The position numbers and the translations under genes are program-made. DNA of 32,893 bases, from positions 1 to 32,893 of the forward strand of contig JAJDZG010000165.1 in assembly GCA_022824765.1 (NCBI GenBank), read 5' to 3'. Positions 1 to 23,503 of this stretch are shown piece after piece; the first letter of the stretch is position 1, and the number at the start of each line of letters is the position of its first letter. This DNA comes from Dehalococcoidia bacterium. GTDB lineage: Bacteria > Chloroflexota > Dehalococcoidia > Bin125. The notes beneath the pieces were generated by a model, which made no database searches, had not been told where the DNA came from, and saw only the letters and a program-made list of their open reading frames with translations.

Positions 1-3000
1 ACCGGTCGACGATCGCGTGTCCATCTGGCGGTTCGTAGATCAGGCGCACCACATCCACAGACGTGATGCGTTCGGCCAGACTCAGTTCTATAGAAGTGTC
101 AGTCCAAGTTTGTGATTCGACTGGGATGGGTCGTCGGCCGGCGGTCACGACGAATGCAGGTGATGCGTCTTCGTTCTCGACGATCTCCTGGTCAAAGTGG
201 ATCGTCAATGTGTCGCTGTCGGCGATGGCAGATGCAACGGTTGGGGGCGTTTCCGTGTAGTTGCGTACCTGGAAGACGGATGTGTCCAGGCGTCCGCCGC
301 TCTCGCCTTGCAATCCCGCTCGTTGGGGCGCGAGGTAGACGACGAAGACGAACTCAAGATTGTCGGGCAATGATCCGTCGAGCCAGAGCGTGACGCTTGA
401 TCCGCTGATCACGATTCGATCGACATCAATGTCGAGTCTCGGAGCGGTGACCAGGAAACGGGACGCAGCGACCGCCCGCACGAGCAACGGAGCGTCGAAC
501 TGCAGAATGATTAGATTCCCGGCACCGAAGCCTTGTATGAACTTTGGAGGGATGACTTCCGGCTTGGGCGGCTTCGGTGGCTTGGGTGTCAAGTCTTTGA
601 TCGGAATCTTGAAGCCGCCGACGGTTAATCCGCCTCCCTTCAGTGTTGATCCGCTGTAGGTGAGTGGGACATTGTTGCCGACTCTGGAATCGTCTTCCAA
701 GTGCATGGTGATGGTCGATCCGTCGATGTCACCGATCGATGTGATCGTTTCGCCCTTGAGTTGGAACTCGTCCACTGTGGGAGCGGGGTCCGTACTGTCG
801 AGGGTCTGGTCGAAGGTCACTGTCAGGACGCCGGCGTCGAGGGTGGCGGAAGAGACGCATGGGGCAGCCTTGCTGATCGGTCGGGAGGGTAGGAACGGTG
901 TTGTAACGTCAGCTAATTCGAAGTCGACCTGGACCGTATCTCCGAGGCAGACCGATGTCGCGGGAGCCAACCTGAAGCCGGTATCGAGCGCCTCTGTTGT
1001 TGCGTCACGAGCGTCCTCCGCGTCTACTGTCACCGTCCAGTCGGCATCGGGAGAGACTTGTTCCGCACCGTCTGTCACGGTGAAGATGAGAGCGCCGAAG
1101 TCGGAATGGACACATTGTACGTTCCAGTCCGGGACGATGTAATTGTCGGCACCGAGGGAGAAGCCGTCCACCGTTCTGCTTCGTCCGTCAAGCAGTGGTT
1201 CGTCGGCTTCGTCGTACGTAACGGCCGCTTCGGTACACTCGGCGACCTCGGCGGTGACCTGGATGTCGAGGAGTTTCTCCGCCGCGGAGACTTGGTCTAT
1301 GTCAGCTGCGACGCCATCGACCGTTACCGAGAACCCTTCTGGATCGACGGACGCGACTTCTGCGAGGGCGTCATCGAAGTCAACGAACACGTGCGTCGGC
1401 GCGGAGCGGTCGACCGCTGCGCCGGTTGCGATTGCTGGGGTGATGTTGACGATGTCAATAGCGTCGGTTCCTTCAACCTGGTTGCCGGTCGGATCTCGCA
1501 GGTTCCATCGTTCTCCGCCGGCCGACTGGGGCGTGTACTGCATCTCCAGGGAGTCGGCGGGTGCGACTCGTTCCAACATGGTGATGACCACCGTTGAGCC
1601 GTCGATGACGATTGATTGGAAGGCCCGCCAGACGGTCCGGTCGGCAACGCGTTCGACAACGAACCAGGCGAGCTCGGGTTGTTCGTCGCAGAACATGCGG
1701 CCAATCTCTTCTTCTGCTGATTCGCAGTCACGCGGCGGCACGAAGTCCGCGTCGAGGGTCTGATCGAAGACGATGGTGAGTATCTTGTGACGGATCGTCG
1801 CGCTGACGATGGTTGGCGGCGAGTCTGCCTGGTTGGTGAGTGAGGTCGTAAAGGATGCGACCAGGTTGCCCGTGTCGTCTCGTAGTCCTGCCGAAGTCGG
1901 AGCCGTATAGGATAGCGTATAGTCGACGCCTTCGGTGAATGTTGCATCGGAGTCCAGTTCGATGATGATCTGACGTTCATTGTTCGGGTCGATGATCACG
2001 GCATCGATCTCGATGGTTGGTGCAAAGCTGAACCAAGCATCGTCGATTGATCCGCTGGGATCGATTCGTTGGTCGAACTGTACGGTGGCGCGATTGCCGT
2101 CGGTGTTGGACTGGATCGATGTGACGTAGGGCGCATAATCTGTGGTGTTGGTCATTGCCTGCGTGAAGTCTGCCACCACGTCGTCGTGGTCCGTTGACGG
2201 TCCTTGAAGTTTGTTGGTCGCCGGCGCGATGTATGAGATGGTGTAGTCGGCTCCTTCAATGACTGTGGTTGGCACGGTGAGGGTCAGGGTTGATCCTGAG
2301 ATTGCGACTGTGTCGATTGCTGGCGCCATGTTGGATAGCGAGAAGGCGGTGATTGGCGGCACGCTGTTGGCGTCTAGTGTTTGGTCGAAGACGATAGTTA
2401 GCGTGGTGGCGTTCACTGTGGCAGTGTCAATGGCCGGCGGCACGCCGGTGAGGTTTGTGAGGAGGTAGTTGTTGATTTCGGCTCGCTGAGGGTCGTCGTC
2501 GTCTTCGAAGATGCGAATCGATCCAGTCTGGGGGGCGTAACGGATGGATAGGACGTCTCCTTCTACGACGCTTTTGGATAAGGTGATCACGATCTTGCCA
2601 AACTTGCCGGGGCCAGTGTCTGAGACTGCAACGAAAGTGATTTCGGCGTCGGGATCGGACAGGACGAAGTGTTCAGTCGGATAGCCGTCTGGTTCGTCGA
2701 AGCGCGGGTTGGCTTCGATGGCCTGGTCGAGGATGATTGTAATGATGTTGTCTTCGACGGTGCCGCTGGTTGGAACCGGCGGCGTGTCGGTCTGATTGTC
2801 TATCGCGGTGACGAACGATGCAGTACGCAAGCCGCCGGGATCGGCAATGCCACCTGTGCTCGGCCTGTCGTACGATAGGGACGCGGTTTCGGACTCCAAG
2901 AGCGGCCGATTGAGCGCGAGGGTGACGGCTGCTGCTTGGATTGAAAGGGAGCTGACGGTGATGCCAGAGGCGGCGGTGATGGTGAAGCTCGAAATCGGAA

Positions 3001-6000
3001 TGTTGGCATTGGGGTCGAGGGTTTGGTCGAAGGTCAGGGTGAGCGTTGCGCCGTCGGCGACGGCTGAGAGCAGCATCGGGGCGGTATCAGTTCGGTTGTC
3101 GGCGGTTCTGCTGAAGTCGCCGACGGTCATTCCATCGGCCAGGGTCAAGGGCGAGGACGCGGGTTCGGTGTATGTGATTGTGGCGGCCACACCTTCGCGG
3201 AGCGATGCGGACAATGTGAGTTCGAGCTTGGTAGCTGAGACGCTTACCTGGCTGATTGCCGGGTTTCCATCATCGAGGCTGAAGGCGGCCGCTGCTGGTG
3301 TGACGGCGGTGTCGAGTTGTTCGGTGAACGTGAGGGTGAGCAGGTCGTTGACGGCGATGACAGATTCAATCAACGGACGAACGGTGTCGTTAGTGACGGG
3401 CACGGCTACGAACGCTGCGACGGTCAGGGTTAGCCCCGGCCGTTTCAACTTGATTTGGTCGTTGGCGAGGTAAGTTATCGTGAGTACGTCGTCCCAGGCG
3501 ACCGCATCGGACAGGGTTAGTGTTACGTTCGCGAGGGCTACGTCGACTGAGGTTACCGTTGCGGTGATGCCGGAAAGTGAGAACTGCGATGCCGGTGGCC
3601 GGGCGGTGGGGCTCGCGTCTAATGTTCTGTCGAAGGTGAGCGTCAGCTCGTCAGCGATTGCTATTGCCGACGTTAGGCGCGGAATACCGTCAGTGTTGTT
3701 GGTGACGGTCTGAGCGGTCCAGGAGGGCGTGCGCCAGCGTTCATTCGGGCTGCGCAGCGATGGGTCGCTTGCAGTTGTTGGCGGTGTGTACGTCAGGGTG
3801 ATCGTCTCTCCAATGTCCGCCGCGGGCGTCAGGGTTAGGGTGATGGTGTTACTTGCGATTGATATGTCTGTGACAGCGGCTGAGGACGTGCCTCCAATAG
3901 ATAGTGTCGATGCGGCTGGCAAGCCATTGCTTGTATCGAGCAGTGGATGCGACATGGTGACCGTCAAGGTGGCGCCGTCTGTGCTGGTCGCGGCTGAGCT
4001 GAAGATTGGCGTCGGATCCTCGGTCAGGTTGGTGAGCGGCAATGCTGCAAAGTCGTCTACCGTCTCGGTTCGTCCAGCACGAGTGAGGGGATTTGTTGAT
4101 GGCTGCTGATACGATAGCGTTACAGCGTCTTCGTGTGTGATGGGCGGAGAGATGGTGAGGGTCAGCGTGTTTGAGGCAATGGCGACCGTTGTAGTCGGGG
4201 CTGTTGCGCCAGCGAGAGTGAATGCGCTCGATGCGGGGACCGTGTTGTTGTCGAGCGGACGAGTAAAGGTGATGTTGATGGTGTCGCCGTCAATCGTGCC
4301 CGAAACGGGGCGGGGTTTGCCATCGGCATTGTTGGTCACTGAGGCGGCCGAGAACGCGGCGACTTCCTTACCGTGCGCGGACGACTTGAGGCGTGCGGAC
4401 GTCTCATCTGTTGGCGGCGCGTAGCTGACCGTTACGGTTTCGCCCACGTCGGCCGTAGGATTGAGAGTGAGAGTGACTGACGTTGCGCTGACGCTTACGT
4501 CGGAGATGTCAGCTGTCGTACCGGCAAGCGAGAATGTCGACGCGGCAGGTGTCCCGGAGGCTGTGTCATCGAGGGCTAACGTGAACGTTAGGGTGAGTAC
4601 GGTCCCGGCCGCGGAGATCGACGCGGTGCTCAATGTCGGTGCGGGCGCGGCGGTCGTGTTGGTGACGGCCTGGTTGGTAAAGGATGCTGCGTCGCGAGTG
4701 TTACGACTTTCGATGCGCGGCGGTGAATCCGGTTGGGCGTACGAGACGGTGATCGTGTCGGCGGCGCTTATGGGTGTTGAGAGCGTGAGCGTGACGACTT
4801 TGTCAGAGAAGGATACGCCGGTAACCGTTGTTTGCTGGACTCCGCCGATGCTGAAGGCGCTGGCCGGTGCGACGTTCTTGAGTGGTTGGTCAAACGTCAA
4901 GGTGAGCGTGGAGGCGTTGACGGATGCTGAGGACACGGTTGGATTGGTATCGGGCGTGTCGCTGGTGAACTGTTTGCTATAGAAGTCGCTGACTTGCAGG
5001 GCGCCGTCGGATTGCTGCAACGCAGATGCGTTTGGTTGCACATAGTCCAGAGTGTACGTTGGGGAATGGCGGGAGAGCACAACGTTGTCAGTCGTCAGGA
5101 CCACGGTGCTGCCGGAGATATCGACCGTGCTCACGCTGGGAGGATTGTTCACGCCAAGAATGGTGAACGCTGAGCCGTCCGGTACGCTTTCTTCGTCGAG
5201 TGGTTCGGAGAACGTCAGTGAAATCTGGTCCCAGAGTGCGGAGATGGATGTGAGGGTTGGCGGACTGTCCACGTTGTTGGTGACGGCGCGTGCTGCCCAG
5301 GATGCAACGTGGAGCGTTCCTTGATCGGCGTCCTGGAGCGGATAATCGTCGCTGCCCTTGGATTGGTCGTATGCCAAGGTTATTGTTTGGCCTTCCGCGA
5401 TGCCATTTCCCGAGAGCGGCAGGTCGATGCGTGATGGCGTGGCTGCGTGGCGGATCAGATCGTTGATGTCTACAGGCGCGCCGTCCGCCTGCAGGGTGAA
5501 TGCGGAGAAGTCGGACCATTGATAACTTACGTCGGCGACAGGTTCGCAGAAGTGTATGTAGACATAGTCGCCTTCGGTGTCCGTGCTGATCGAGGTCACT
5601 ACTGGCGCGGCGTCGGTCGTGTTGTTGACCGATTGTCCGCTGAATGCCGCGACGGTTCCGCCGCTGACTCCAATCAGTGATGAGGCGGCTGCGGTGTAAC
5701 TGGCCGACACGTCCGAGTCGGTGCACTGTGAGTCGGGGATTGCTTCGGAAAGGGTGAGGATGACGTCGGAGGCATTGATGGTTGCGGTGTTGACTGTTTG
5801 TGCGGCTGCGCCCAGGGAGATACTGAAGTCGGACGCGTCGACGGTGCTTTGCGATGCCAGTGATTCGCTGAACGAGAGGGTCACTGTCGTGGCGTGGACG
5901 TCGGCGGATGTGACGGTGGGAGGCGACTGCGTTGCGCCCCTTGGCAGGGACGCGCTGATTGCGAGCAAGAGGAGCAGGAAGAGAGCTCTAGTGCGCGCCG

Positions 6001-6037
6001 AGCTGCGAGGTGCTGTGAGCAGGAAGCGGATGGGCAC
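1..6037 (-). CDS. Giant secreted SwmB-like repeat protein, partial (C-terminus off the left edge)
   Basis: I read this frame codon by codon from the GTG at 6037-6035 to the left edge and found no stop, giving at least 2012 residues. The N-terminus looks like a Sec signal peptide: basic residues, then the hydrophobic run ALFLLLLLAISASL around residues 18-31. About 17 units of roughly 105 residues follow. Each has a core strand such as ATLTLTFDQTLD, a middle strand such as ISGSTLTLTL and a closing strand such as DYTISYIAP, then a turn like DDTGNLVASF. This matches the SwmB/SWM bacterial Ig-like repeat of large surface or extracellular proteins. A proline-lysine linker (PKPPKPPKPE) lies near bases 551-590, and the stretch at about 850-1720 contains several cysteines. 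The start lies 13 bases after the crotonase stop, with no clear ribosome site. No earlier in-frame ATG or GTG was found; a TTG lies inside the crotonase gene. Adhesion or a cell-surface role is inference. The gene is visibly less GC-rich than its neighbours. Confidence 0.88.
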   Translation of the reverse strand, partial: MPIRFLLTAPRSSARTRALFLLLLLAISASLPRGATQSPPTVTSADVHATTVTLSFSESLASQSTVDASDFSISLGAAAQTVNTATINASDVILTLSEAIPDSQCTDSDVSASYTAAASSLIGVSGGTVAAFSGQSVNNTTDAAPVVTSISTDTEGDYVYIHFCEPVADVSYQWSDFSAFTLQADGAPVDINDLIRHAATPSRIDLPLSGNGIAEGQTITLAYDQSKGSDDYPLQDADQGTLHVASWAARAVTNNVDSPPTLTSISALWDQISLTFSEPLDEESVPDGSAFTILGVNNPPSVSTVDISGSTVVLTTDNVVLSRHSPTYTLDYVQPNASALQQSDGALQVSDFYSKQFTSDTPDTNPTVSSASVNASTLTLTFDQPLKNVAPASAFSIGGVQQTTVTGVSFSDKVVTLTLSTPISAADTITVSYAQPDSPPRIESRNTRDAASFTNQAVTNTTAAPAPTLSTASISAAGTVLTLTFTLALDDTASGTPAASTFSLAGTTADISDVSVSATSVTLTLNPTADVGETVTVSYAPPTDETSARLKSSAHGKEVAAFSAASVTNNADGKPRPVSGTIDGDTINITFTRPLDNNTVPASSAFTLAGATAPTTTVAIASNTLTLTISPPITHEDAVTLSYQQPSTNPLTRAGRTETVDDFAALPLTNLTEDPTPIFSSAATSTDGATLTVTMSHPLLDTSNGLPAASTLSIGGTSSAAVTDISIASNTITLTLTPAADIGETITLTYTPPTTASDPSLRSPNERWRTPSWTAQTVTNNTDGIPRLTSAIAIADELTLTFDRTLDASPTARPPASQFSLSGITATVTSVDVALANVTLTLSDAVAWDDVLTITYLANDQIKLKRPGLTLTVAAFVAVPVTNDTVRPLIESVIAVNDLLTLTFTEQLDTAVTPAAAAFSLDDGNPAISQVSVSATKLELTLSASLREGVAATITYTEPASSPLTLADGMTVGDFSRTADNRTDTAPMLLSAVADGATLTLTFDQTLDPNANIPISSFTITAASGITVSSLSIQAAAVTLALNRPLLESETASLSYDRPSTGGIADPGGLRTASFVTAIDNQTDTPPVPTSGTVEDNIITIILDQAIEANPRFDEPDGYPTEHFVLSDPDAEITFVAVSDTGPGKFGKIVITLSKSVVEGDVLSIRYAPQTGSIRIFEDDDDPQRAEINNYLLTNLTGVPPAIDTATVNATTLTIVFDQTLDANSVPPITAFSLSNMAPAIDTVAISGSTLTLTVPTTVIEGADYTISYIAPATNKLQGPSTDHDDVVADFTQAMTNTTDYAPYVTSIQSNTDGNRATVQFDQRIDPSGSIDDAWFSFAPTIEIDAVIIDPNNERQIIIELDSDATFTEGVDYTLSYTAPTSAGLRDDTGNLVASFTTSLTNQADSPPTIVSATIRHKILTIVFDQTLDADFVPPRDCESAEEEIGRMFCDEQPELAWFVVERVADRTVWRAFQSIVIDGSTVVITMLERVAPADSLEMQYTPQSAGGERWNLRDPTGNQVEGTDAIDIVNITPAIATGAAVDRSAPTHVFVDFDDALAEVASVDPEGFSVTVDGVAADIDQVSAAEKLLDIQVTAEVAECTEAAVTYDEADEPLLDGRSRTVDGFSLGADNYIVPDWNVQCVHSDFGALIFTVTDGAEQVSPDADWTVTVDAEDARDATTEALDTGFRLAPATSVCLGDTVQVDFELADVTTPFLPSRPISKAAPCVSSATLDAGVLTVTFDQTLDSTDPAPTVDEFQLKGETITSIGDIDGSTITMHLEDDSRVGNNVPLTYSGSTLKGGGLTVGGFKIPIKDLTPKPPKPPKPEVIPPKFIQGFGAGNLIILQFDAPLLVRAVAASRFLVTAPRLDIDVDRIVISGSSVTLWLDGSLPDNLEFVFVVYLAPQRAGLQGESGGRLDTSVFQVRNYTETPPTVASAIADSDTLTIHFDQEIVENEDASPAFVVTAGRRPIPVESQTWTDTSIELSLAERITSVDVVRLIYEPPDGHAIVDR
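150..5960 (-). repeat. Tandem coding repeats of about 290-380 bp (SwmB-like units)
   Basis: The FDQTLD-like core motif recurs in one frame near bases 5870, 5550, 5200, 4890, 4580, 4260, 3950, 3630, 3320, 3030, 2730, 2390, 2070, 1770, 1390, 810 and 190. Spacing is mostly 290-350 bp and is longer in the last three intervals, where extra sequence (cysteine-bearing and proline-rich) intervenes. The repeats are diverged at DNA level, so this is an old domain array and not a recent expansion. Confidence 0.8.
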
Positions 6038-6050: not shown

Positions 6051-6827
6051 CTAGTGGCCTGTCCAGCTCGGGGGGCGTTTCTCAACGAAGGCGAGCGGAC
6101 CTTCAGTTGCATCTTCGGAGTTGAGCACCGTGCGGCTGACCCATTGCCCGACGCGGTAGGATTCGTCGATTTGTAGCTGGCGCCATTGCTGCGCCATGAA
6201 CTTCGTGCCTTCGACGGCCAACGGTGCGTTCGCGGCGATCATTTCCGCGATCTCGACGGCGCGCGGCATCAGCTCTTCCGCGTTGAGCACTTCGCGGATC
6301 AGGCCCATGCGCAACGCTTCCTCGGGCGATATGCGGTCGGCGGTGAGCATGATGTAAAGCGCATCGCCGATCGGTAGCATCCTGGCGAGGTGATGGATTG
6401 CATAGCCAGGCATGATGCCGCGTTTGACTTCGAAGAGGCCAAAGTAGGCGTCGGTTGAGGCAATGCGGATGTCGCAATCGAGGGCGCGTTCGAGACCGCC
6501 GGCGATGCAGAGTCCGTTGATTGCAGCGATGAACGGCTTGCGGGCGCGGGAGAACGGCATTGACTCGTCGAGGTCGTAGCCCATGGTGTTGCGCAAGCCG
6601 TCACGGGCCTGATTGCCCTCGTTCATTTCCTTGAGGTCAGCGCCGGCGCAGAAGGCGCGCCCGGCGCCCGTCAGAATGCCGACACGCATGTCAGGGTCGG
6701 ACTCCAGGTCTTCTACGGCTTCGACCATCAGCCGACGGAGATCGCCGCCGAGCGCGTTGAGGCGTTCGGGGCGATTCATCGTGAGGACGGCGTAATGGTC
6801 GAACTTTTCGTAGATGAGGTCTGGCAT
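6051..6827 (-). CDS. Enoyl-CoA hydratase/isomerase (crotonase) family protein
   Basis: The product is 258 residues, the usual length for the crotonase family, which acts on acyl-CoA thioesters. The first oxyanion-hole segment is AFCAGADLKEM (residues 58-68). The second is INGLCIAGGLERALDCD (103-119), followed by FGLFEVKRGIMPG (129-141). Glu133 aligns with the first catalytic glutamate of enoyl-CoA hydratase (rat Glu144). The position of the second (rat Glu164) appears to be Tyr158 in GDALYIML. Hydratase activity is therefore doubtful, and an isomerase, hydrolase or other crotonase reaction is possible. It follows the SDR gene by 12 bases and precedes the giant repeat gene by 13, so the three may be co-transcribed. 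The ATG at 6827 gives a standard N-terminus. Confidence 0.88.
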   Translation of the reverse strand: MPDLIYEKFDHYAVLTMNRPERLNALGGDLRRLMVEAVEDLESDPDMRVGILTGAGRAFCAGADLKEMNEGNQARDGLRNTMGYDLDESMPFSRARKPFIAAINGLCIAGGLERALDCDIRIASTDAYFGLFEVKRGIMPGYAIHHLARMLPIGDALYIMLTADRISPEEALRMGLIREVLNAEELMPRAVEIAEMIAANAPLAVEGTKFMAQQWRQLQIDESYRVGQWVSRTVLNSEDATEGPLAFVEKRPPSWTGH

Positions 6828-6839: not shown

Positions 6840-7625
6840 TTACAGTGCAGCGAGGGTGTCTCGCATGTCGCGGTCGTCGACGATGTTGCCGGTGTAGGAC
6901 GGCGGTTGGCTGGCGATCCAGACGGTGGCGCGCGCTATCCATTCTGCGTCTTCAAACTCGGTCTGCGGCTGTTCCGGTGTGGTCAGCGCGTACCAGTGTC
7001 CCGGCGTTTTGATCAGGTAGCGCAGGGTCAGGACGTTACAGGCAATCTGGTCGGACTGCAGTTCCATGGCCCAGCCTTGCGTGATGCGTTCCAGGCCGGC
7101 TTTGACCATTCCGTAGAACTGACCGCCTTCGCGGGGGTCGTCGTAGGGGCCGGGTCCAGGCATATCGGCGGCGCCGGAGGAGATGTTGATGATGTCACCG
7201 CCGTTTTCCTTCATGTAGGGAAGCGCGGCTTTGGCGAGCAGGATCGGACCGCGCAGATCGAGCTGCCAGATCAAGTCGATGTGGCGGGCCTGCGATGACT
7301 CGAGCGTGCCGGGCACGAGTACCGCGGCGTTGTTGACGAGAATGTCAAGTCCGCCGAGTTCTGATGCGGTTTGTTCGACGGCGCGGGCGATGGAGTCCGG
7401 GTCGCGTACGTCAAGGACGACGGGAACAGCGGTGCCGCCGGCATTGTTGATCTCCTCGGACACGGTCCGAATGGTTCCAGGCAAGCGGGGGTCGGGCGAT
7501 GCTTCGTCGGAGCGAGCTGCGACGGCGACGGCGGCACCGTGCGCTGCAAGTCCGCGCGCGATGTCGGCGCCGATGCCTCGGCTGGAGCCGGTCACGAGCG
7601 CCTTGCGTCCGTCGAGCAATGCCAT
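6840..7625 (-). CDS. Short-chain dehydrogenase/reductase (SDR) family oxidoreductase
   Basis: This is a 261-residue classical SDR. It has the NAD(P)-binding TGSSRGIG at residues 12-19, the structural motif VNNAA near 98-101, the catalytic serine in INISSG (about 149-150), and the catalytic pair in YGMVK (Tyr171, Lys175). The substrate cannot be told from sequence. The C-terminus (YTGNIVDDRDMRDTL) lacks the usual GG-x-DGG ending and is somewhat unusual. It is the first gene of the short minus-strand group SDR-crotonase-giant repeat protein. Its upstream region is the 437-bp non-coding stretch before the IS element, where its promoter should lie. Confidence 0.9.
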   Translation of the reverse strand: MALLDGRKALVTGSSRGIGADIARGLAAHGAAVAVAARSDEASPDPRLPGTIRTVSEEINNAGGTAVPVVLDVRDPDSIARAVEQTASELGGLDILVNNAAVLVPGTLESSQARHIDLIWQLDLRGPILLAKAALPYMKENGGDIINISSGAADMPGPGPYDDPREGGQFYGMVKAGLERITQGWAMELQSDQIACNVLTLRYLIKTPGHWYALTTPEQPQTEFEDAEWIARATVWIASQPPSYTGNIVDDRDMRDTLAAL

Positions 7626-11410: not shown

Positions 11411-12607
11411 GTGCGTCACACAGCCGCGCTCATGCTGGGATCTGGATTGATCGGCGCCGTCGTCGCGGCGCTGATCAGCGCGCTGATGCTGACGGGCAGC
11501 GACGAGTCGAGCGACGGCGATCTGCAGTCCGCCGTCGCGGAGGCGGTGCAGTCGGCGATGGCGGAGACGGTGGCTGAGTTGATCGACGAGCGGCTGGAGC
11601 GGTCGGATGATCAGGCGTCGGCACGGCTCGCCGAAGCGATGGCGTCGCAGCGCATGCTCGTGGCGAGTGCCTTCGAGGCAGTCGCGCCGTCGGTGGTGCT
11701 GATTGACGCGGAGGGTCCGCCGCGGGTCAATGAGGAGGGGGTCACGGTGGTCAGCGCGGCGCTGGCGACGGGGTTCTTGCTCGACGATCAGGGTCACGTG
11801 GTGACTGCGGCGCATGTGTTGGAGGGCATGACCAGCGTGACGGTGATTCTGCCCAACGGCGATCGACGGGAGGCGGAGCAGATTGGTGATGATCGGCCGT
11901 TTTCTGATGTGGGGGTGCTGCGCTTCGAGCCTGAAGCGTCGGACGAGCTGGCGGTGCCGAGCTTTGGCGAGGACCGCGTGGTTGGCTTCGGTGAGACGGT
12001 TCTGGCGATTGGCAATACGCTGATGGGCAGCGATCTCGCGGTCACCGTCGGCGTCGTCAGCGATCCCGACACCACGTTCTCTCGCGAGCGCTATGAGCAG
12101 GTTCAGCTGATACAGACCGATGCGGCGCTCAATCACGGCAACTCGGGCGGGGTGTTGGTCGACCTCGACGGCGTCATCGTGGGGATGCCGGCTGTGATCG
12201 CCCGCTCGACGCGCGAGGGCGGCTTCGTGGACGGTGTGGGCTTCGCGCTGCAGATCGTACCGGTGCTGGAGATTGCGCGGACGATCGCGGCGGAGGGGTT
12301 CTATCCGCGCGCGAGCTTTGGGGTGGTTAACGAGCGGCTGCTGACTCCAACAGCGGCGGCGCAGCTGGAGCTGGAGGTGTCGGAGGGATCGTTCTTGATC
12401 GAGCTGGAGCGACAGGGCGCGTTCGCGCGGGCGGGGATCCGTCCGGGCGACGTGCTGCGTCGGCTGAACGAGACGCCGATCAATGCGGAGACGCCGTACC
12501 TGAACGCGATGGCCGATCTGGAGCCGCTGGTGCCGGCCACCGTTCATATCTATCGCGGCGACCAGGAGTATCGGTTGCTCGTGACACCGGACCTGCGCGA
12601 GCCGTGA
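11411..12607 (+). CDS. HtrA/DegP-like membrane-anchored serine protease (S1C family) with PDZ domain
   Basis: This is a 398-residue protein. It has an N-terminal hydrophobic segment (about 5-27, signal anchor) and a helical, coiled-coil-like linker (about 36-80). The trypsin-like domain has a catalytic triad visible as His135 (VTAAHV), Asp166 (SDVGVL) and Ser245 (HGNSGG). The C-terminal PDZ domain covers about 305-395 (RAGIRPGDVLRRLNE). The family degrades or refolds damaged proteins outside the cytoplasmic membrane. The start is GTG at 11411, and the signal anchor follows directly. The stop overlaps the GTG of the next gene by four bases (GTGA), so the two are probably translated together. 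The paralogue type (DegP, DegQ or DegS) cannot be told. Confidence 0.93.
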   Translation: MRHTAALMLGSGLIGAVVAALISALMLTGSDESSDGDLQSAVAEAVQSAMAETVAELIDERLERSDDQASARLAEAMASQRMLVASAFEAVAPSVVLIDAEGPPRVNEEGVTVVSAALATGFLLDDQGHVVTAAHVLEGMTSVTVILPNGDRREAEQIGDDRPFSDVGVLRFEPEASDELAVPSFGEDRVVGFGETVLAIGNTLMGSDLAVTVGVVSDPDTTFSRERYEQVQLIQTDAALNHGNSGGVLVDLDGVIVGMPAVIARSTREGGFVDGVGFALQIVPVLEIARTIAAEGFYPRASFGVVNERLLTPTAAAQLELEVSEGSFLIELERQGAFARAGIRPGDVLRRLNETPINAETPYLNAMADLEPLVPATVHIYRGDQEYRLLVTPDLREP

Positions 12608-14442
12608 CGAGGCAGGGATCACCGCCCGACGGCGGATGGCAGCCGCAGCCGGCCCGGCGCATCGGAGAGCCGGCGCGACGCATGCCGCGGCGTGCGCCGC
12701 GCACGCCTGCGGAACCGGAAGCGGCGCCGTTTGAGCAGCCGTCCCAAGCTGAGGCAGAAGCTCCAGTGGGCGCTCAGTTGGAATCGGCTGGCGGAGGCGT
12801 CGGCGTGCCGCGCAGGGCGTCGACCGGCGGGCGCGGCTCCGGCTTTCTGATCATCGTCCTGATTGCCGCGCTGCTCGTCGGACTGGTGATCGTGCTGTTC
12901 TTCGAACCGGGCCTCGTCGAGACCGGCTTCACATCGGACGAGGAGGCCGAGGTGTCGGCCGGGTCGGAGCGGGCCGTGCTGGTCCGGGCGACGCTGATGG
13001 AGCAAGCGCCACCGATCTCGGACGTGTTGGGCGCGGCCTCTCCGATCTATGAGATCGCGGTGCCGGCGGGGCGACTGGGGCCGTTCGAGTTCTCGCTGCG
13101 GTTGACCAATCCGAGCCAGGACTCGCGCAATCTGGGCGCGTACACGTGGAATGGGGAGGACTGGGTGCGGCTGGGGGACGCTGTGCTTTCGAGCGATGGG
13201 GTTTCAGCTCGCATTCGTCTGGCGTCGGCGCCCGACAACATCGCGATCTTGCGGCGGCTGCAGTTTCGCGACGTGATCGCTGCCCGGGTGCCGCGGGGCG
13301 AAGAGCCGCAATCGCTGCTCTCTGGATCGCTCACGCTGCTGCATCCGGACGGTTGGCGGCCGGGCGCGGACGGATCGCTGCTCGGTCTGGTCGACCTGCC
13401 TGCGTCGGTGATTGCTCAGAATGTGTGGCCGACGATCTCCGCTGGCGCGGACCAGACAGAACTTGTCAATGACATTCTTGCGTCGGACAACTTGCGGCGC
13501 CAACACATCGGCAACATCCAGCACGCGATTCAGAGCGGCCAGCACGACGGCGTGGACATTCACTACCTGAACGTGTCGCCGGCCTTGCGGACGCAGTTCA
13601 CGTCGTTCATCACCGAGCTGGCGGATCGTCTGCATCGTGACGATCGGGGATTGTCCGTGCATATCCCGATCAATGCCTCGGGCGGCGTCGGCGAGGGCGC
13701 GTACGACCTGTCGCAGCTCGGTGCTTCGGCGGATTTCGTGGTGATTGAGCCGCCGCTTGATCCGACGATGCATCAGGCGGCGATTGCTGCCTCGCTGCCG
13801 ACGCTGCTGGAGCGGATTGAGTCGAGCAGATTGCTGTTGTCGTTGAAATCGAACGCGGTGGTGCGCACGTCGGCTGGATTCAGCGAGATCACGCAGCGCG
13901 AGGCGTTGGGCATCGCTTCGGACCTGAGCATCCGTGAGCCGGGACCGTACACTCCGAGCTCGCGAGTGACTCTGCAGGGAGCGGCGATCATGCTGGACAA
14001 CCTGTCCAGCGGACTGCGTTGGGACGACGCCAACCGAATCGTCTCGTTCACTTACAGCGATCAGACGGGAGCGCCGGTCACGATTTATATCCATAATCGG
14101 TTTAGCGCGGCGTTCCAGATGCAAGCGGTGTCGGACTGGGAGCTGGGCGGCGTCTACATCGCCAATGCGTCGGCTGATCCGGGTAACGCCAATCTGTGGC
14201 CGGCGATTGCGGCCTTCTTCGAGTCGGGCGTTCCCGACCTGCGCCTGCCCAACGCGATCCTGTTTGACCCGGTCTTCAGCGTCGAGGGCGGTGTGCTGTC
14301 GGGCAACAGCAGCAGCGGTTGGCAGTTCTGGGAGTTGCCAACGGAAGCAGGCAGCTATCGGGCGCAGCTGGTCGTCTCCGATGGCGACGTGCGCGTCGGG
14401 CATGAGATCACGGTGCCCGTGGGCATCGAGGCGGCGCAGTAA
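12604..14442 (+). CDS. Membrane-anchored GH18-like protein lacking the catalytic glutamate
   Basis: This is a 612-residue protein. It has a proline/arginine-rich cytoplasmic N-terminus (1-78), one membrane helix (about 80-100) and an extracellular region. Residues 312-358 resemble the glycoside hydrolase 18 barrel: GQHDGVDIHYLNV, then FITELADRLH and LSVHIPI. The GH18 signature DGxDxDxE would place the acid/base glutamate where this protein has Leu322, and the last Asp is His320, so hydrolysis looks lost. SGLRWDDANRIVSFTYSD (about 468-485) fits the end of a spore-cortex/YaaH-like GH18 barrel. Residues 120-260 and the C-terminus look beta-rich. A glycan-binding or scaffold role is inference. 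It starts at GTG 12604, overlapping the HtrA stop, and its stop overlaps the rsmD start (TAATG). Confidence 0.7.
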   Translation: MTRQGSPPDGGWQPQPARRIGEPARRMPRRAPRTPAEPEAAPFEQPSQAEAEAPVGAQLESAGGGVGVPRRASTGGRGSGFLIIVLIAALLVGLVIVLFFEPGLVETGFTSDEEAEVSAGSERAVLVRATLMEQAPPISDVLGAASPIYEIAVPAGRLGPFEFSLRLTNPSQDSRNLGAYTWNGEDWVRLGDAVLSSDGVSARIRLASAPDNIAILRRLQFRDVIAARVPRGEEPQSLLSGSLTLLHPDGWRPGADGSLLGLVDLPASVIAQNVWPTISAGADQTELVNDILASDNLRRQHIGNIQHAIQSGQHDGVDIHYLNVSPALRTQFTSFITELADRLHRDDRGLSVHIPINASGGVGEGAYDLSQLGASADFVVIEPPLDPTMHQAAIAASLPTLLERIESSRLLLSLKSNAVVRTSAGFSEITQREALGIASDLSIREPGPYTPSSRVTLQGAAIMLDNLSSGLRWDDANRIVSFTYSDQTGAPVTIYIHNRFSAAFQMQAVSDWELGGVYIANASADPGNANLWPAIAAFFESGVPDLRLPNAILFDPVFSVEGGVLSGNSSSGWQFWELPTEAGSYRAQLVVSDGDVRVGHEITVPVGIEAAQ

Positions 14443-16371: not shown

Positions 16372-17418
16372 CTAGTCGGCGGTGACCAGCTGCGGCTGGG
16401 GCGCGAGCGGATTGCCGACTGCTTGGCCGATTTTCTCCAGCGAGCGCATCATGCTGTCGAAGTTTTCGAGCGTCAGCGACTGTCCGCCGTCGGAGAGGGC
16501 GTGATCGGGGTTGGGGTGGACTTCGATCATGAGGCCGTCAGCGCCGACGGCCATTGAAGCGCGAGCCATCGGCTCGACCAGGTACCAGTGTCCGGTGCCG
16601 TGGGCCGGATCGCTGATGATCGGCAAATGGCTGAGTCGCTTGACGACGGGGATGGCCGAGAGGTCGAGGGTGTTGCGGGTTGCGGTTTCGTAGGTGCGGA
16701 TGCCGCGCTCGCAGAGGATGACGTCGCGGTTGCCCTTGGCCATGATGTACTCGGCGGCGAGCAGCCACTCGTCGATGGTGGCAGAGAGTCCGCGCTTGAG
16801 CATGACGGGCTTGTGGGCCATGCCGACTTCGTCGAGCAGCATGAAGTTCTGCATGTTGCGGGTGCCGATTTGGAGGATGTCGGCGTAGCGAGCGACGAGT
16901 TCGACGTCGCGGGAGTCCATCACCTCGGTGATGACGGGCAGGCCGGTTTCGTCACGCGCGGTGGCGAGGTGCTGGAGTCCCTCTTCGCCGAGTCCGCGGA
17001 AGGCGTAGGGGGAGGTGCGGGGCTTGAAGGCGCCGCCGCGCAGGATCTGGGCGCCCGAGGCCTTGACTGCCTTGGCCGTGGAGACCATGTGGTCTTCGTT
17101 CTCGATCGAACAGGGACCGGCCATCACGACCATGTTGCCGTCACCGATCTTGACGCCGCCGACCTCGATCACGGTGTCGGCTTCCTGGAATTCGCGGCCG
17201 GTCAGCTTGTAGGGGCGGGAGATGGCGATGACCTCTTCGACGCCGCTCATGCGGCTCATTTGGGCGCGGATGTCGGGGTCGATGATGACGCCGACGGCGC
17301 CGATCACGACGCGCTCCTCGCCTGGGGACAGGTGTCCTTCGAGGTTGGCTTCCTTGAGTCGGGCGAGGACGCCGCGAACCTCTTCGTCGCTCGCGCCCAT
17401 CTTCATCACAATCAGCAT
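16372..17418 (-). CDS. aroF: 3-deoxy-7-phosphoheptulonate (DAHP) synthase, type I-beta with N-terminal regulatory domain
   Basis: This is the first enzyme of the shikimate pathway: phosphoenolpyruvate plus erythrose-4-phosphate gives DAHP. It has 348 residues, with a ferredoxin-like regulatory domain at about 1-70, as in Thermotoga maritima DAHP synthase. In that family this domain mediates feedback inhibition by Tyr and Phe. The catalytic barrel has [24 protein letters not shown] (126-142), [29 protein letters not shown] and IEVHP. The metal ligands are Cys103, His273, Glu299 and Asp310, each one residue beyond the T. maritima numbering. It is the last gene of the aromatic cluster, 76 bases after aroH. 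Confidence 0.96.
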
Positions 17419-17494
17419 GTCGGTTCCTTCTCGCTCGTGTGCGGTTCTACTCAGAGTTTGATGTGCGTTGTTTCGGCGCGTCCGCAGGGGGACG

Positions 17495-17899
17495 TTAACG
17501 CTCTGCGATTTCTGCCAAGTCTGTTCGCAGTACGCGTGCTCCGCGCAGGTAGACGTGCTCGACCTGGTCCTGTCGCCGGGTCGTATTGACGTGCAGCAGG
17601 ATCCGCAGGCAGGACGGCAGCGAGCCGGGCACTTGCATCTCGTGCCCGCACATCAACGCGGCGTTCGACCAGTTGTAGGTCAGGCGGGCCGCGACGGCCG
17701 GGAACTCAGCGTTGAGGTCGGGCGTGGTGGTGAACCAGGCGGAGGCCACTTCCTGGGCGTCGATGTCGTTGCGGGCGATCATCTCGCCGAGCAACTCTTC
17801 GGTTGCGGCGAGGATGTCATCACGGGCGTTGTGTTCGACCGTGGTGGCGCCGCGAATGCCTCGCAGGCGCCAGACTGGATCGGCAGAGTGGTTGGCCAT
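17495..17899 (-). CDS. aroH: Chorismate mutase, AroH type
   Basis: This enzyme converts chorismate to prephenate, the branch to Tyr and Phe. It has 134 residues and aligns along its whole length with the trimeric Bacillus subtilis AroH mutase: [50 protein letters not shown] and [14 protein letters not shown]. Active-site equivalents are present: Arg16 (B. subtilis Arg7), Cys84 (Cys75), Glu87 (Glu78), Arg99 (Arg90) and Tyr117 (Tyr108). It lies between trpA and aroF on the same strand. Together with TyrA, which lacks a mutase domain, it completes the Tyr branch. Confidence 0.97.
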
Positions 17900-18077
17900 C
17901 GCCAGGTGCTCAGTGGTTCTCGTCTGGTGGCTTGGGAACAGTGGGTAGGGCGATGCGGTTGATGTTGAGTCAACCGACCGCGCGTGGACGCGCGCTAGCG
18001 ACCGGCGTCAAAGATGCCGGCCGCGGAGGTATAGAGGCAGCGGTCAGGCAGCAGCGTACGGGTACGGCTGACAGTGC
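17900..18077. other. trpA-aroH intergenic region with small hairpins
   Basis: This 178-base gap is the longest in the 3' half of the cluster. It holds perfect short inverted repeats: GGTTGA/TCAACC (17957-17962 and 17970-17975) and CGCGCGT/ACGCGCG (17979-17994, two-base loop). A GC-rich ACCGG/CCGGC pair lies just beyond. There is no T-run. It may mark the end of the trp transcript or contain a separate aroH-aroF promoter; I cannot tell which. Confidence 0.4.
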
Positions 18078-19004
18078 TCATGCGCTCGTCTCTTCACTCC
18101 GGCGGCCGGTGACCACCTCGAGATAGTGCTCGACGGCCGCGACACGACCATCGGCAGGCGCCGACGCGATCGTGTTGGTCAGCGCTGAACCGATGATAGC
18201 AGCAGGAACGAGTTTGCCCACCTCGACAACGTGTTGTCGGCGACTGATGCCGAATCCGACCGCCAACGGGGTGTCAGTCAGGGCTCGAACGCGGCCGACG
18301 AATTGCTCAAAGTCGGCTGCGACTTGTTCTCGGGCGCCGGTCACGCCGGTGAGCGAGACGAGGTAGATGAAGCCCGAGGCCTTGTCGGCGACGGTGGCGA
18401 TGCGCCGGGGTGTGGAGGTTGGGGCCAGCAGGTAGATCAGCGAGATGCCGTGCTCGGCGAGCACGTCCCGCGCCGCGTCCGATTCCTCGACGGGCAGGTC
18501 GACGATGATCATGCCGTCGACGCCGGCATCGGCGGCCATCCGAGCGAGCGGCGCGAGCGGCTCGCCGACGGCGGCGCCGGGCGGATCGGCCAAGGCCTGG
18601 TCGGTTGCGTCTGCGACATTGGTTGCGCCGACGGCGAGGAAGGGATTGAGGTAACCCATCAGCGTGAGGGGCGCGTCGGGCGCGAATTCGCGTGCCGCGC
18701 GAACGGCGTCGAGCGCTGTGTCCAGACTGGCGCCGGCGGCGAGCGCCTGGGTGTAGGCGGTCTGGTGCACTGGGCCGTCCGCGATCGGGTCGGAGAATGG
18801 CACGCCGATTTCCAGGCCGGCTGCGCCGCCGCGCAAGGCGGCGCGGATCAGCTCGGGCGTCTCTTCAGGCGTGGGGAAGCCGGCGGTGAGAAAGGGGAAG
18901 ACGAGCGTGTCGCCGCCTGACTCGGCGGCGTCGAAGGCCTGTCGATAGCGCGCGCCGAGCGTCGCGCCTGGATTGTGTGCGCTGTTTGTTCCTGTGTGCG
19001 TCAT
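18078..19004 (-). CDS. trpA: Tryptophan synthase alpha chain
   Basis: TrpA cleaves indole-3-glycerol phosphate to indole, which passes to TrpB. The motifs are FPFLTAGFPTPEET, LEIGVPFSDPIADGP (catalytic Glu65 and Asp76), MGYLNPF, GVDGMIIVDLP and SLTGVTGAR. I chose the ATG at 19004. A longer frame continues upstream, but that part is Arg-rich, lies within the CPBP gene in another frame and has no family match. At 308 residues it is longer than the usual roughly 265-270. Most of the excess is an insertion at about 125-152, between MGYLNPF and GVDGMII, plus a short N-terminal extension. It starts 14 bases after the CPBP gene. Confidence 0.95.
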   Translation of the reverse strand: MTHTGTNSAHNPGATLGARYRQAFDAAESGGDTLVFPFLTAGFPTPEETPELIRAALRGGAAGLEIGVPFSDPIADGPVHQTAYTQALAAGASLDTALDAVRAAREFAPDAPLTLMGYLNPFLAVGATNVADATDQALADPPGAAVGEPLAPLARMAADAGVDGMIIVDLPVEESDAARDVLAEHGISLIYLLAPTSTPRRIATVADKASGFIYLVSLTGVTGAREQVAADFEQFVGRVRALTDTPLAVGFGISRRQHVVEVGKLVPAAIIGSALTNTIASAPADGRVAAVEHYLEVVTGRRSEETSA

Positions 19005-19018
19005 GGTGTTCGCTGCCT

Positions 19019-19732
19019 TTATCCGAGCTGTTGTACCAGCGTCGCTGAATATCCGATCAGGTTGAAGCCCACATGCGTCATTGACGCGGCGGTGAGCGAT
19101 CCTGTGCGCAAGTAGACCACTCCCAGGACGACGCCTGCGAGGGCAAAGGGAATGAGGCTGCCCAGGTCCGCGTGCAGCGCCGAGAAGACGGATGCCGAGA
19201 TTACGAATGCGGGGATGAGTCCCCAATGCGCGTTGAGTCCGCCCAGCACGAAGCCGCGCGAGAAGGCTTCCTCGTAGATCGGCGCGAGGCAGACGACCAA
19301 CACGCCGAGGGCGATCATCACGGACGTGTGCACGAAGAGCCTGTCGTCGTCGATCGTCGATTCAGGGATCAACGAGTCCCAGCCAAGGGCAGTGACGATG
19401 GCGGTGTAGATGTAGAGGGCGACGTAGATTGCGCCGAGACCGAACAACGCCGTCACGAGATCGGGGCGTCGGGGCCGACGCCAGGAGATCAGTTGCGATT
19501 GGCCGCGCCGTCTGAGGATCAGACGCGGGATCAGCAGCCATCCGACGAGGCCGGCGGCGGCCTGTCCGGCGACCATGATCAGCAGGCCGGCTTCGCTCTG
19601 GGCGTCGCCGCCGTCGATTTCTGAGACGATGACGGTCGCGAGCAGCACGATTGCCAGCCAGGCAACGGTGCAGAGCAATCCCCAGCCGACGAGCCGAAAC
19701 CCGGCCATGCCGTGATCCTGCGGACCGGCCAT
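19019..19732 (-). CDS. CPBP (Rce1/Abi-like) intramembrane metalloprotease family protein
   Basis: This is a 237-residue multi-pass membrane protein with hydrophobic segments near 12-37, 48-70, 92-116, 134-152 and two or three more to the end. The CPBP motifs are in order: YEEAFSRGF (Glu154, Glu155, Arg159), FSALH (His187) and HVGFN (His220, Asn224). The family cleaves substrates within or near the membrane, for example prenylated proteins and bacteriocin-related peptides; the substrate here is unknown. Its ATG overlaps the trpB stop by one base (TGATG), and trpA starts 14 bases after its stop. It is therefore embedded in the trp operon. An alternative start is the second Met (residue 9). Confidence 0.88.
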   Translation of the reverse strand: MAGPQDHGMAGFRLVGWGLLCTVAWLAIVLLATVIVSEIDGGDAQSEAGLLIMVAGQAAAGLVGWLLIPRLILRRRGQSQLISWRRPRRPDLVTALFGLGAIYVALYIYTAIVTALGWDSLIPESTIDDDRLFVHTSVMIALGVLVVCLAPIYEEAFSRGFVLGGLNAHWGLIPAFVISASVFSALHADLGSLIPFALAGVVLGVVYLRTGSLTAASMTHVGFNLIGYSATLVQQLG

Positions 19733-20934
19733 CAGCCGCCTCGCTGTGCGAGGGCGTCGCGGACGATTTCGACGTCCTTGTCTCCGCGGCCGGAGAGTCC
19801 GATGAGGATGTGTTGGTCCTGGCTCATGGTCGGCGCGATCTTGGCGGCGTAGGCGATGGCGTGAGCGGTCTCGAGGGCGGGGATGATGCCTTCGGTTTCG
19901 GAGAGCAGCTTGAGGCCGTCGAGCGCCTCATCGTCGGTGATCGACACGTACTCGGCGCGCTCGGTCTGCATGAGCCAGGCATGCTCAGGTCCGACGCCGG
20001 GATAGTCGAGGCCGGCCGAGATCGAGTGCGCTTCGGTGATCTGACCGTCGACGTCCTGCAGGACATAGGTGCGGGTCCCGTGCAGGACGCCTGGCGATCC
20101 GCCGGTCAGCGTGGCGGCGTGACGGGCGTTGAGACCTTCTCCGGCCGCCTCGACGCCGATCAGCTGCACGGGATCGTCGACGAGCGGGTGAAAGAGGCCG
20201 ATGGCGTTCGATCCGCCGCCGACACAGGCGACGGCGGCATCGGGCAAGCGTCCGATCTGCTCCACCATCTGGTCTCGTGCTTCGCGTCCGATGCAGGACT
20301 GCAGCTCTCGGACGATCATGGGATATGGGTGCGGACCGATTGCGCTGCCGATCAGGTAGTGGGTGGTTCGGACGTTGGTGACCCAGTCGCGGATGGCCTC
20401 GTTGATGGCGTCTTTCAGGGTTCTCGCGCCAGACTCGACTGGCACGACTTCGGCGCCGAGCAGGTTCATGCGGAAGACGTTGAGGGCCTGGCGTCGGACG
20501 TCCTCCGCGCCCATGTAGACGATGCACTCGATGCCAAAGCGAGCGCAGGCGGTGGCGGTCGCGACGCCGTGTTGTCCGGCGCCGGTCTCGGCGATGATGC
20601 GCGGTTTGCCCATGCGTCGGGCCAGCAGCACCTGTCCGATGGCGTTGTTGATTTTGTGTGCTCCGGTGTGGGCCAGGTCTTCGCGCTTGAGCCAGATTTG
20701 GGCTCCGCCCAGGCGCTCGGAGAGGCGCGGGGCGAGGGTGAGCGGCGTCTGGCGGCCCACGTAGTTTCGCAGCAACTCGTCGAGTTCGGCGCGAAAGGCT
20801 GGATCGGTCTGCGCGGCCTCCCACGCATCTTCCAGTTCGGAGAGGGCGGGCATCAGCGTCTCGGGCGCGAACTGGCCGCCGAACGGACCGAACGCTCCGC
20901 TTTCCCGCACACCGCTGAGACTTGCAGTCGACAT
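19732..20934 (-). CDS. trpB: Tryptophan synthase beta chain
   Basis: TrpB is the PLP enzyme that joins indole and serine to make tryptophan. The product is 400 residues, the normal length. Family segments include [17 protein letters not shown] at the N-terminus, [16 protein letters not shown] with the PLP lysine at Lys94, [13 protein letters not shown], the phosphate-binding GGGSNAIG (239-246) and LSGRGDKD near the C-terminus. It is a TrpB1-type sequence that pairs with TrpA. The start is the ATG at 20934, one base after the trpF stop. The longer upstream frame is an Arg/Ser-rich shadow within trpF and was not used. Confidence 0.97.
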
Positions 20935-20935
20935 C

Positions 20936-21613
20936 TCAATCGCCCCCCTTCGCAGCCCGAACAAATTCAGCAATCTTGGCGCGGTCCTTTGTGCCGTCAG
21001 TCTCGACGCCTGAGGACACATCGACGGCCCAGGGGCGGACCTGGTGGACAGCGTCGGCGACGTTGTTGGGGTTGAGTCCGCCTGCCAACACGATGGGCCG
21101 CTTTTCGGCAACGCTCGCGGCGATGGACCAATCAACTGCTTGACCTGTGCCGCCGCCCTGCGTGGATTTGGCGTCGAGCATGGCGACGGCGCGCGGCGCG
21201 CGATCGATCTCGCGCAGCACGGCGGACTCGTCCATGCCGTCCGACATATGAACCGCACGCACGACGGCGCGGCGGATGCGTTCGGCGAGGGCTGGATGCT
21301 CGCCGCCGCTGAGCTGGACGATGTCGAGATCGACCTGGTCGAGCACTCGTTCGATCTCGTCCACAGACTGTCTGGCAAAGACACCGACGAGCAGTGGCTG
21401 GCCGGCGGCGGCGCGTTCTCGGGCGAAGGTGATTGTGGAGGCTTCGGCCAGTTCGATGCGTGGTCCGAGTTCTTGGCGGACTTGACGCGCGGCGCTGATC
21501 TCGATGCGGCGCGGGGCGTCGGCGAAGATCATGCCGACGGCGTCGGCGCCGGACTCGCGCGCCCAGACGGCGTGTTGGACAGCACGAACGGAGCAGATCT
21601 TGACGAGGGTCAT
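20936..21613 (-). CDS. trpF: Phosphoribosylanthranilate isomerase
   Basis: TrpF isomerises phosphoribosylanthranilate to CdRP, between TrpD and TrpC. The product is 225 residues, slightly long. The N-terminal VKICSV holds the general-base Cys7, and the general acid Asp161 is in GQAVDWSIA. The phosphate-binding part reads [14 protein letters not shown] and [14 protein letters not shown]. Two conserved spots differ: VKICSV replaces VKICG(I/L), and QLSGGE replaces QLHG. The fit is otherwise good and the operon position is right. ATG 21613 overlaps the trpC stop by four bases. Confidence 0.94.
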
Positions 21614-22395
21614 CGTCCGAGCAGCTCTCGAGCTTTGGCGTGCGGGTCGGCGGCGGTGGACAACGCTTCGCCGATCAAGACGGCGTCGACGCCGCAGTCT
21701 TCCATCCGCCTCATGTCGTCGCGCGAGCGAACACCGCTTGCAGCAACGACGGCGATGGCGTCGGGGATTGCGGATCGGAGACGCTCCGTGGTGCCGAGGT
21801 CTTCCTCGAACGTGTGCAGATTGCGGTTGTTGATGCCGATGGCGACGGCGCCGGCGTCGAGCGCCATGTCGACTTCTTGCTCGTCGGTGACCTCCACGAA
21901 GGCGGTGAGGCCGAAGGGGTCGCCGGCTTCACAGAGCTCAGTGAGCGCTCTGCGGTCGAGCGTCTTGGCGATCAGCAGATAGGCATCGGCGCCGAGGGTT
22001 GCGGCTTCCGCGATCTGGTAGGGGTCAAGGTGGAATTCTTTGCGGAGCAGCGGGATGTCGGTATCGCGCAGGGCGGCGGCGGCGTGGACGAGATCGGTGT
22101 CCGTTGCGAAGAATGACGGCGCGGTGAGGACGGAGACGGCGACCGCGCCGATCTGGGAGTAGGTGCGGGCCAGGGCGGCGGGATCGAGATTCGGCGCGAA
22201 CGGTCCCTTCGAGGGCGAGCCTCGCTTGATTTCGGCGATCAGGCCAACGCCTGGCTGGCGCAGGGCGGCGGGGAAGTCCTTCGGCTCGACCGATTTCATT
22301 GCGGCGTCGAAGATCGTCTGAGGTGGAACCGCCCGCTTGCGCTCGGCGATGTGGGCACGGGTTTCCGCGACGATCCGCTCCAAGACCGAGCTCAT
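21610..22395 (-). CDS. trpC: Indole-3-glycerol-phosphate synthase
   Basis: TrpC closes CdRP to indole-3-glycerol phosphate. It has 261 residues. The catalytic Lys57 lies in AEIKRGSPSKG, followed by VSVLTAPSFFATD, LLRKEFHLDPYQI, LLIAKTL, INNRNLHTFEEDL, VAASGVRSRDD and VLIGEAL. All are typical of the family. I chose the ATG at 22395 (MSSVLERIV), which overlaps the trpD stop as ATGA; the open frame extending upstream lies inside trpD. One substitution stands out: FFATD replaces the common YFGGS/FFGGS phosphate-loop sequence. Confidence 0.96.
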   Translation of the reverse strand: MSSVLERIVAETRAHIAERKRAVPPQTIFDAAMKSVEPKDFPAALRQPGVGLIAEIKRGSPSKGPFAPNLDPAALARTYSQIGAVAVSVLTAPSFFATDTDLVHAAAALRDTDIPLLRKEFHLDPYQIAEAATLGADAYLLIAKTLDRRALTELCEAGDPFGLTAFVEVTDEQEVDMALDAGAVAIGINNRNLHTFEEDLGTTERLRSAIPDAIAVVAASGVRSRDDMRRMEDCGVDAVLIGEALSTAADPHAKARELLGR

Positions 22396-23447
22396 GGTGC
22401 GGATCCGATCGCTCGGGAGCGCTCGACGAACAGCTCGAGCTTGCGCAAGGCGCGTTGATCGTCGATGCACTCGGCGGCACGGCTGACGCCTTCGGCGAAG
22501 GTGGGGACTTCTTCGGCGGCGAACAGGCCGGCTGCGGCGTTGAGGGTGACGAAGCCGGTTAGGGCTGAGGTGATGCCGCCGAGCACCTGGCGCATCATTT
22601 TCGCTGATGCGTCAGCGGTGCTGCCGCCTCGAACGGCCTCGAGCGGCACGGGTCGGATCTGGAAGTCGTTGGGCGAGACCGTGAACTCGCTCAGCGCCCC
22701 GTCAACGATCAGCCAGCAGGTGGTCGCTCCGCTCGGTGACACTTCGTCCAGCCCCTCATGTCCGTGCACGACGAGGCCGCGTCGGACGCCGAGTCTGCCC
22801 AAGGCTTCGGCCATGATCGGACCAAGTTCGGGTCTGGCGACGCCGATCATCTGATGGGTCGCGCGGGCGGGATTGGTGAGCGGGCCGAGCACGTTGAAGA
22901 CGGTACGGACGCGGATCCGTCGGCGGATTGGGGCGACATGCCGCATGGCGGGATGGAAGGCCTGTGCGAAGAGGAAGCCGAAGCCGACCTCGCGGATGAG
23001 GCGGGCGGCTTGATTTGGGGAGAGCGCGATGGTCGCGCCGAGCGCTTCGAGCACGTCTGCGCTGCCGACGGATGAGGACATGGCGCGGTTGCCGTGCTTG
23101 GCGACGGGCACGCCGCAGCCGGCGAGGACGAAGCCGGCCGCTGTGGAGGCGTTGAACGTGTGCTTGCCGGATCCGCCGGTGCCGGCGGTGTCGGCCAGAC
23201 GGGGCAGATCGCTCAAGTCGACGGTGAGGGCATGCTGGCGCATTGCGCGAGCGAGCCCGACGATTTCGTCGACCGTTTCGCCGTTCATGCGGAGGCCCGT
23301 CAGCAGCGCGGCGGCCTGCACGTCGTCGGAGTCGCCGGACATGAGCGCGTCCATTGCGGCCGCGGCTTCGGCGTCGGACAGGTGGCGGCGTTCGTCGATC
23401 ACAGCGGCCAGCGCTGCCGTCATGTCGCCGGTCGAGGGGTCAGCCAT
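22392..23447 (-). CDS. trpD: Anthranilate phosphoribosyltransferase
   Basis: TrpD transfers phosphoribose from PRPP to anthranilate. It has 351 residues, typical. Motifs are DTAGTGGSGKHTFNAST (about 86-102, PRPP binding), VAKHGNRAMSSSVGSADVLE, FLFAQAFHPAMRHV and RTVFNVLGPLTNP. It is not fused to TrpG. Its stop overlaps the trpC start (ATGA). The 56-base gap before its start carries two imperfect direct copies of an AATCTTGCTC-like word (plus strand 23451-23464 and 23479-23492). Confidence 0.97.
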   Translation of the reverse strand: MADPSTGDMTAALAAVIDERRHLSDAEAAAAMDALMSGDSDDVQAAALLTGLRMNGETVDEIVGLARAMRQHALTVDLSDLPRLADTAGTGGSGKHTFNASTAAGFVLAGCGVPVAKHGNRAMSSSVGSADVLEALGATIALSPNQAARLIREVGFGFLFAQAFHPAMRHVAPIRRRIRVRTVFNVLGPLTNPARATHQMIGVARPELGPIMAEALGRLGVRRGLVVHGHEGLDEVSPSGATTCWLIVDGALSEFTVSPNDFQIRPVPLEAVRGGSTADASAKMMRQVLGGITSALTGFVTLNAAAGLFAAEEVPTFAEGVSRAAECIDDQRALRKLELFVERSRAIGSAP

Positions 23448-23503
23448 TGAAGTCTTGCTCTTCTGCGTACGTCACTCGAATCTTGCTCCTCTTGCCACTA
23501 CAG

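Follow-up and report, generated by a model that had tools for sequence, protein, structure and literature searches.

A giant SWM-repeat protein of near-constant architecture in a sponge-associated genus of Dehalococcoidia

The SWM repeat is named after SwmB of Synechococcus WH8102, a giant surface protein of 10,791 amino acids (PMC4949707) that is required for non-flagellar swimming (PMC4949707, PMC3342319). Tandem Ig-like domains are also found in the S-layer proteins SbsC and EA1. In sponge MAGs, proteins of the cadherin and fibronectin III kinds are overrepresented, and they are discussed as attachment factors (PMC8163846). SWM-repeat giants are already known; what sets apart the one described here is an architecture nearly constant throughout its genus, together with an undescribed C-terminal domain.

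The window, that is, the whole 32,893-nucleotide stretch of DNA analyzed, is a contig (C41) of a 2.35-Mb genome in 171 contigs. A sequence-only reading had proposed that its left 6 kb carry an open minus-strand frame for a protein of at least 2012 amino acids, with no stop inside the window. Both points stood. The frame from 6037 to 2 is stop-free over 2012 codons, and leftward extension located the stop on contig C61 of the same genome, which supplies the missing 197 codons for a total of ~2,209 amino acids. This length is read by joining the two contigs, with no base altered, at a shared 141-base overlap. Such an exact overlap is what de Bruijn assembly at k = 141 leaves between adjacent contigs. 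Contig names with k141 are present among the records of relatives, and the "jk18x" bins come from a study of Caribbean Ircinia sponges that used Megahit assembly (PMC9531527). Independent support for the junction comes from the nearest relative (G007, 86% identical), in which the gene lies unbroken on one contig with the same neighbors on either side.

Where does the protein begin? The GTG at 6037 was taken as the start, while a mechanical reading opens the frame earlier, at an ATG (6112) within the crotonase gene, to give 2037 amino acids. In G007 (L031, about 13500-13600), two additional bases directly follow the counterpart of this GTG, which does not lie in the reading frame, and the true start of both genes is uncertain. 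The frame itself is a genuine gene for a giant SWM-repeat protein: its Pfam and NCBIfam profile matches, its full-length orthologues, and its dN/dS of 0.156 show that it is not a product of chance. Neither a stop or frameshift in the frame nor a failure to match Ig-like or SwmB profiles appeared. The features of the locus are as follows.

1..141, no strand: the 141 bases with which contig C61 also ends (41946-42086), an assembly-graph junction (the two copies 100% identical; gene order uninterrupted in G007)
2..6037, minus: codes for the first 2012 of the ~2209 aa of the giant SWM-repeat protein, the rest and the stop lying on C61 (G000:C61:41353-41946, L003 19267-19860) (open frame, SWM_repeat match, contig overlap and continuation, orthologues)
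5927..6037, minus: aa 1-37, where a Sec-type signal is predicted; start at GTG 6037 uncertain (hydropathy, similar N-terminal peaks in orthologues, DNA comparison of starts)
1436..5923, minus: SWM-like units 1-14, aa 39-1534 (unit HMM, each E 1e-26 to 1e-33; Pfam, NCBIfam)
1118..1435, minus: SWM-like unit 15, aa 1535-1640 (E 1.7e-08)
869..1117, minus: aa 1641-1723, an all-beta domain that diverges from the units and has conserved cysteines (Cys 1642 and 1697 invariant; strands modeled as beta; not matched by the unit HMM)
563..868, minus: SWM-like unit 16, aa 1724-1825, with a Pro/Lys linker at its end (E 1e-11)
251..547, minus: SWM-like unit 17, aa 1831-1929 (E 1.1e-07)
2..250, minus: first part of SWM-like unit 18, aa 1930-2012, ending near aa 2030 on C61 (E 3.2e-14)
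6051..6827, minus: crotonase (enoyl-CoA hydratase) gene, directly upstream (ECH_1, 4.7e-54)
6840..7625, minus: SDR gene (adh_short, 7.8e-36)

Pfam SWM_repeat (PF13753) matches the protein in 12 stretches (E = 2.8e-110, 361 bits against a cut-off of 27), NCBIfam swm_rep_I (TIGR02059) in 14 stretches in tandem (6e-73, 241.5 bits against 40.1), and Pfam Big_5 at E 1.2e-14. Tandem matches above the curated cut-offs of the first two make this an SWM-repeat protein, and with the frame and the unit segmentation they bear out the SwmB-like repeats first noticed in the bare sequence. The segmentation yields 18 SWM/Big_5 units, which occupy aa 39-1640 and aa 1724-2030; the last four of them, 15 to 18, were detected with an HMM built from units 1 to 14 only. 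Seventeen are complete in the window and the 18th is cut by its edge; the original count of about 17 was thus right for the window, and the whole protein has 18. Between units 15 and 16 lie about 83 residues without the SWM pattern, and the Pro/Lys linker of unit 16 is 11 residues longer here than in other species, G007 excepted. The last 180 residues, after unit 18 (~aa 2030) and up to aa 2209, form a separate domain with no match in Pfam. No SWM paralogues of the giant were found in its own genome.

AlphaFold predicts aa 1300-1930 to be all-beta (pLDDT 87, pTM 0.60), and a fold search with this model returned tandem-Ig matches down to E 3e-11, among them SbsC and EA1 from S-layers, neural Ig adhesion proteins, and GhpA, the grappling-hook protein of Aureispira; global TM-scores were low, as expected with flexible chains. 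Taken with the Big_5 match, this model and its fold matches indicate a chain of Ig-like beta-sandwich domains. The C-terminal domain is modeled as alpha/beta (pLDDT 77.7, pTM 0.75). Its fold search produced hits to beta-galactosidase, a GAIN domain, and MYDGF, which were set aside because no PDB match reached E <= 0.001 and no TM-score exceeded 0.45. Sequence searches of the PDB with full-length and C-terminal profiles likewise found no relatives.

Is the protein exported? The N terminus had been described as a signal peptide and is indeed predicted to be signal-like, with a hydropathy maximum of 1.70 at aa 18-36, although its exact start shares the uncertainty noted above. By hydropathy, this copy has no membrane segment after the N terminus; it also has no LPxTG, and C-terminal hydropathy reaches at most 0.74. 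Two adjacent sortase genes are present elsewhere in the genome (G000:C71:10631-11955), the giant itself being without a sortase signal. No SLH domain matched anywhere in the genome, and Omp85 was not found in it, which together with the two sortases would fit a single-membrane cell envelope.

The most unusual part is how constant the architecture is, since repeat number might be expected to drift in such giants. The protein is encoded in each of the 14 further genomes examined from the genus (15/15 with this one), and it is a single copy here. Twelve of these copies are full length and two (G012, G003) are truncated at contig ends. The 12 full-length copies are colinear, with 41-86% identity and lengths of 2,186-2,415 amino acids. 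Counting insertions of at least 8 and deletions of at least 6 residues, the gaps among them, the extreme N terminus aside, come down to two additional units (209 residues) in G010 and G004, smaller insertions (13, 14, and 8 residues), and the 11-residue linker difference. Units at the same position in different species have mean identities of 44-48%, as against 28-29% at other positions, and by species the best match of 12 to 18 of the 18 units is the unit at the same position. Most of the unit order therefore predates the genus, and this position-specific similarity, with the near absence of indels, argues for a fixed architecture. The mature protein has ten cysteines, none of which varies in any copy that covers the region, at about 42% identity. 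The dN/dS of 0.156 was obtained at a dS of 0.48 (this species against G007), compared with 0.03-0.12 for six neighbors; the giant is under purifying selection, looser than that on its housekeeping neighbors. Positive selection was not seen in any 150-codon block.

The surroundings are conserved as well. The position after an SDR and a crotonase gene, already remarked on from the sequence, recurs in 12/12 loci with a full-length gene, in the order SDR, crotonase, giant, and a convergent downstream birA, and birA also adjoins the gene on the truncated contig of G012. In G003 (L040, G003:C445), whose copy is cut at a contig end, neither birA nor the aminotransferase gene, the usual downstream neighbors, was found within 8.3 kb, owing either to rearrangement or to a binning or assembly fault. 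The lower GC than in the neighbors was also correctly noted (59.4% versus about 66%). Does this mark the gene as foreign? That idea was rejected: synteny is conserved, and the deficit varies from 0 to 6 points across orthologues, being absent in some. Elsewhere in the window, the minus strand at 16372-30927 carries an aromatic amino acid cluster (DAHP synthase, trpA, trpB, trpF, trpC, trpD, trpG, trpE, EPSP synthase, and prephenate dehydrogenase); between its trpA and trpB sits the frame of a CAAX-type protease (19019-19732). A 612-residue frame at 12604-14442 scores 24.7 bits against glycosyl hydrolase family 18, short of the cut-off of 29.6.

Which organisms are these? The named relatives are Dehalococcoidia/Chloroflexota sponge MAGs (Ircinia, Aplysina), and the names RHO and IRC suggest Rhopaloeides and Ircinia. 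One relative, bin125 (MPNM01), is from Aplysina aerophoba, with a coverage of 757, apparently the highest among the Chloroflexi rows shown (PMC5649159). Bin125 is also the name of an order-level Dehalococcoidia lineage (PMC10608941), to which the genus with the giant protein probably belongs. The C-terminal domain is present in 15/15 genomes of the genus and in one sister genus (G017); it was found in none of the other 377 genomes of the class searched and in no plasmids, and the sister genera G015, G016, G018, and G019 are without it. SWM repeats as such occur in 14/400 sampled genomes of the phylum. Long SWM-repeat frames distinct from the giant were also seen in related genomes, of 4772 (G008:C19, about 91000), 3021 (G009:C25, 66000-72000), 3255 (G002:C23, about 82000), 3241 (G016:C6, about 53000), and 7818 (G438:C28, about 1600) amino acids. 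A literature search found no papers naming this protein family.

What might such a protein do? The best explanation, to which we give a probability of roughly 55%, is an exported extracellular or envelope rod of fixed length with a structural role at the cell surface. It draws on the SWM/Big_5 profiles, the all-beta beads and tandem-Ig fold matches, the hydrophobic N terminus with no other membrane segment, the invariant cysteines, the fixed architecture, the presence in all 15 genomes, and the looser purifying selection. The beads would form a stiff or semiflexible chain, extending by our estimate over roughly 80 nm (4-4.5 nm per bead) and locked by up to five disulfides, should the cysteines pair. 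As a structural surface or envelope protein, such a rod would be one whose span matters; its C-terminal domain may be what binds it to the cell or a partner, with the exposed bead surfaces left free to diverge, and it would probably contribute to the face that these bacteria show within sponge tissue. A fixed-length rod is weakened by the lack of a known anchor, whether SLH or sortase signal, by the low global TM-scores, and by the insertion in G010 and G004, which shows that length can change. In a bolder version, which strikes us as unlikely, this would be a genus-defining surface rod of sponge symbionts whose C-terminal domain, a new fold family, docks to the wall or the sponge, the fixed length setting the spacing between symbiont and host matrix.

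The sequence-only reading had spoken of a surface or adhesion protein. Giant size, predicted export, and SwmB-like repeats stood; a place at the surface or in adhesion goes beyond them, as no anchor, binding site, or known adhesive domain was found. Adhesion would nevertheless be a plausible role, and we regard as possible, if on the doubtful side, that the rod serves mainly to display a binding tip, either the C-terminal or the nearby divergent domain, for the sponge matrix or neighboring cells. The sponge origin of the relatives, the attachment factors discussed for sponge MAGs, and the fold matches to Ig adhesion molecules and GhpA all point this way, but Ig-like beads alone do not imply adhesion, bead number is fixed, and the codon blocks are free of positive selection. 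A structural rod and an adhesin are inseparable by sequence. Could the protein instead be a subunit of an S-layer or wall lattice tiling the cell? Its single copy, its universality in the genus, the SbsC/EA1-type fold matches, and a genome without Omp85, consistent with a single-membrane cell, speak for this, but we consider it decidedly improbable given a genome with no SLH domain and a protein that exceeds the size of the usual S-layer subunits, which are smaller. Least probable by far is a motility protein acting like SwmB; the repeat family and the role of SwmB in swimming would suggest it, but what the two proteins are known to share is limited to the repeats, and SwmB is about five times larger. 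SWM repeats are rare in the phylum, yet none of the genomes examined from this sponge-associated genus lacks the giant, and its architecture hardly changes. In an abundant, uncultured symbiont group, the protein offers a concrete candidate for surface building or host contact, with orthologues that form a clean set and a terminal domain, so far undescribed, that can be tested.

How does the giant compare with known systems? Like SbsC and EA1, it would be an exported chain of Ig-like beta domains, but the PDB search found no sequence relationship to them, and, with no SLH match in its genome, it falls outside the SLH-anchored S-layer class. It also falls outside the sortase-anchored class, since it has no C-terminal LPxTG with a membrane segment, the two encoded sortases notwithstanding. 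Sponge-associated bacteria, Chloroflexota included, also have beta-sandwich bead proteins of the cadherin and fibronectin III kinds; the domains of the giant, however, are SWM/Big_5, a family that goes unmentioned in the accessible part of PMC8163846. A further counterpart is the SWM protein of the sister genus (G017:C1), which has some 20 SWM units and a C-terminal domain related to that of the giant (E 6.4e-13). At 31% identity, with 20 units, 0/10 of the cysteines, and an extra 75-residue insertion near the C terminus, it was rejected as a full equivalent; no birA was seen in the 6.2 kb downstream. SwmB, finally, is likewise a giant of tandem units that match the SWM profile. It is not called an orthologue in this comparison, which is one of profile and size rather than of the SwmB sequence: only the repeats are shared, and the two are not of comparable size. 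Unlike SwmB, the giant belongs to a different phylum, keeps a fixed bead order throughout its genus, and has a C-terminal domain of its own.
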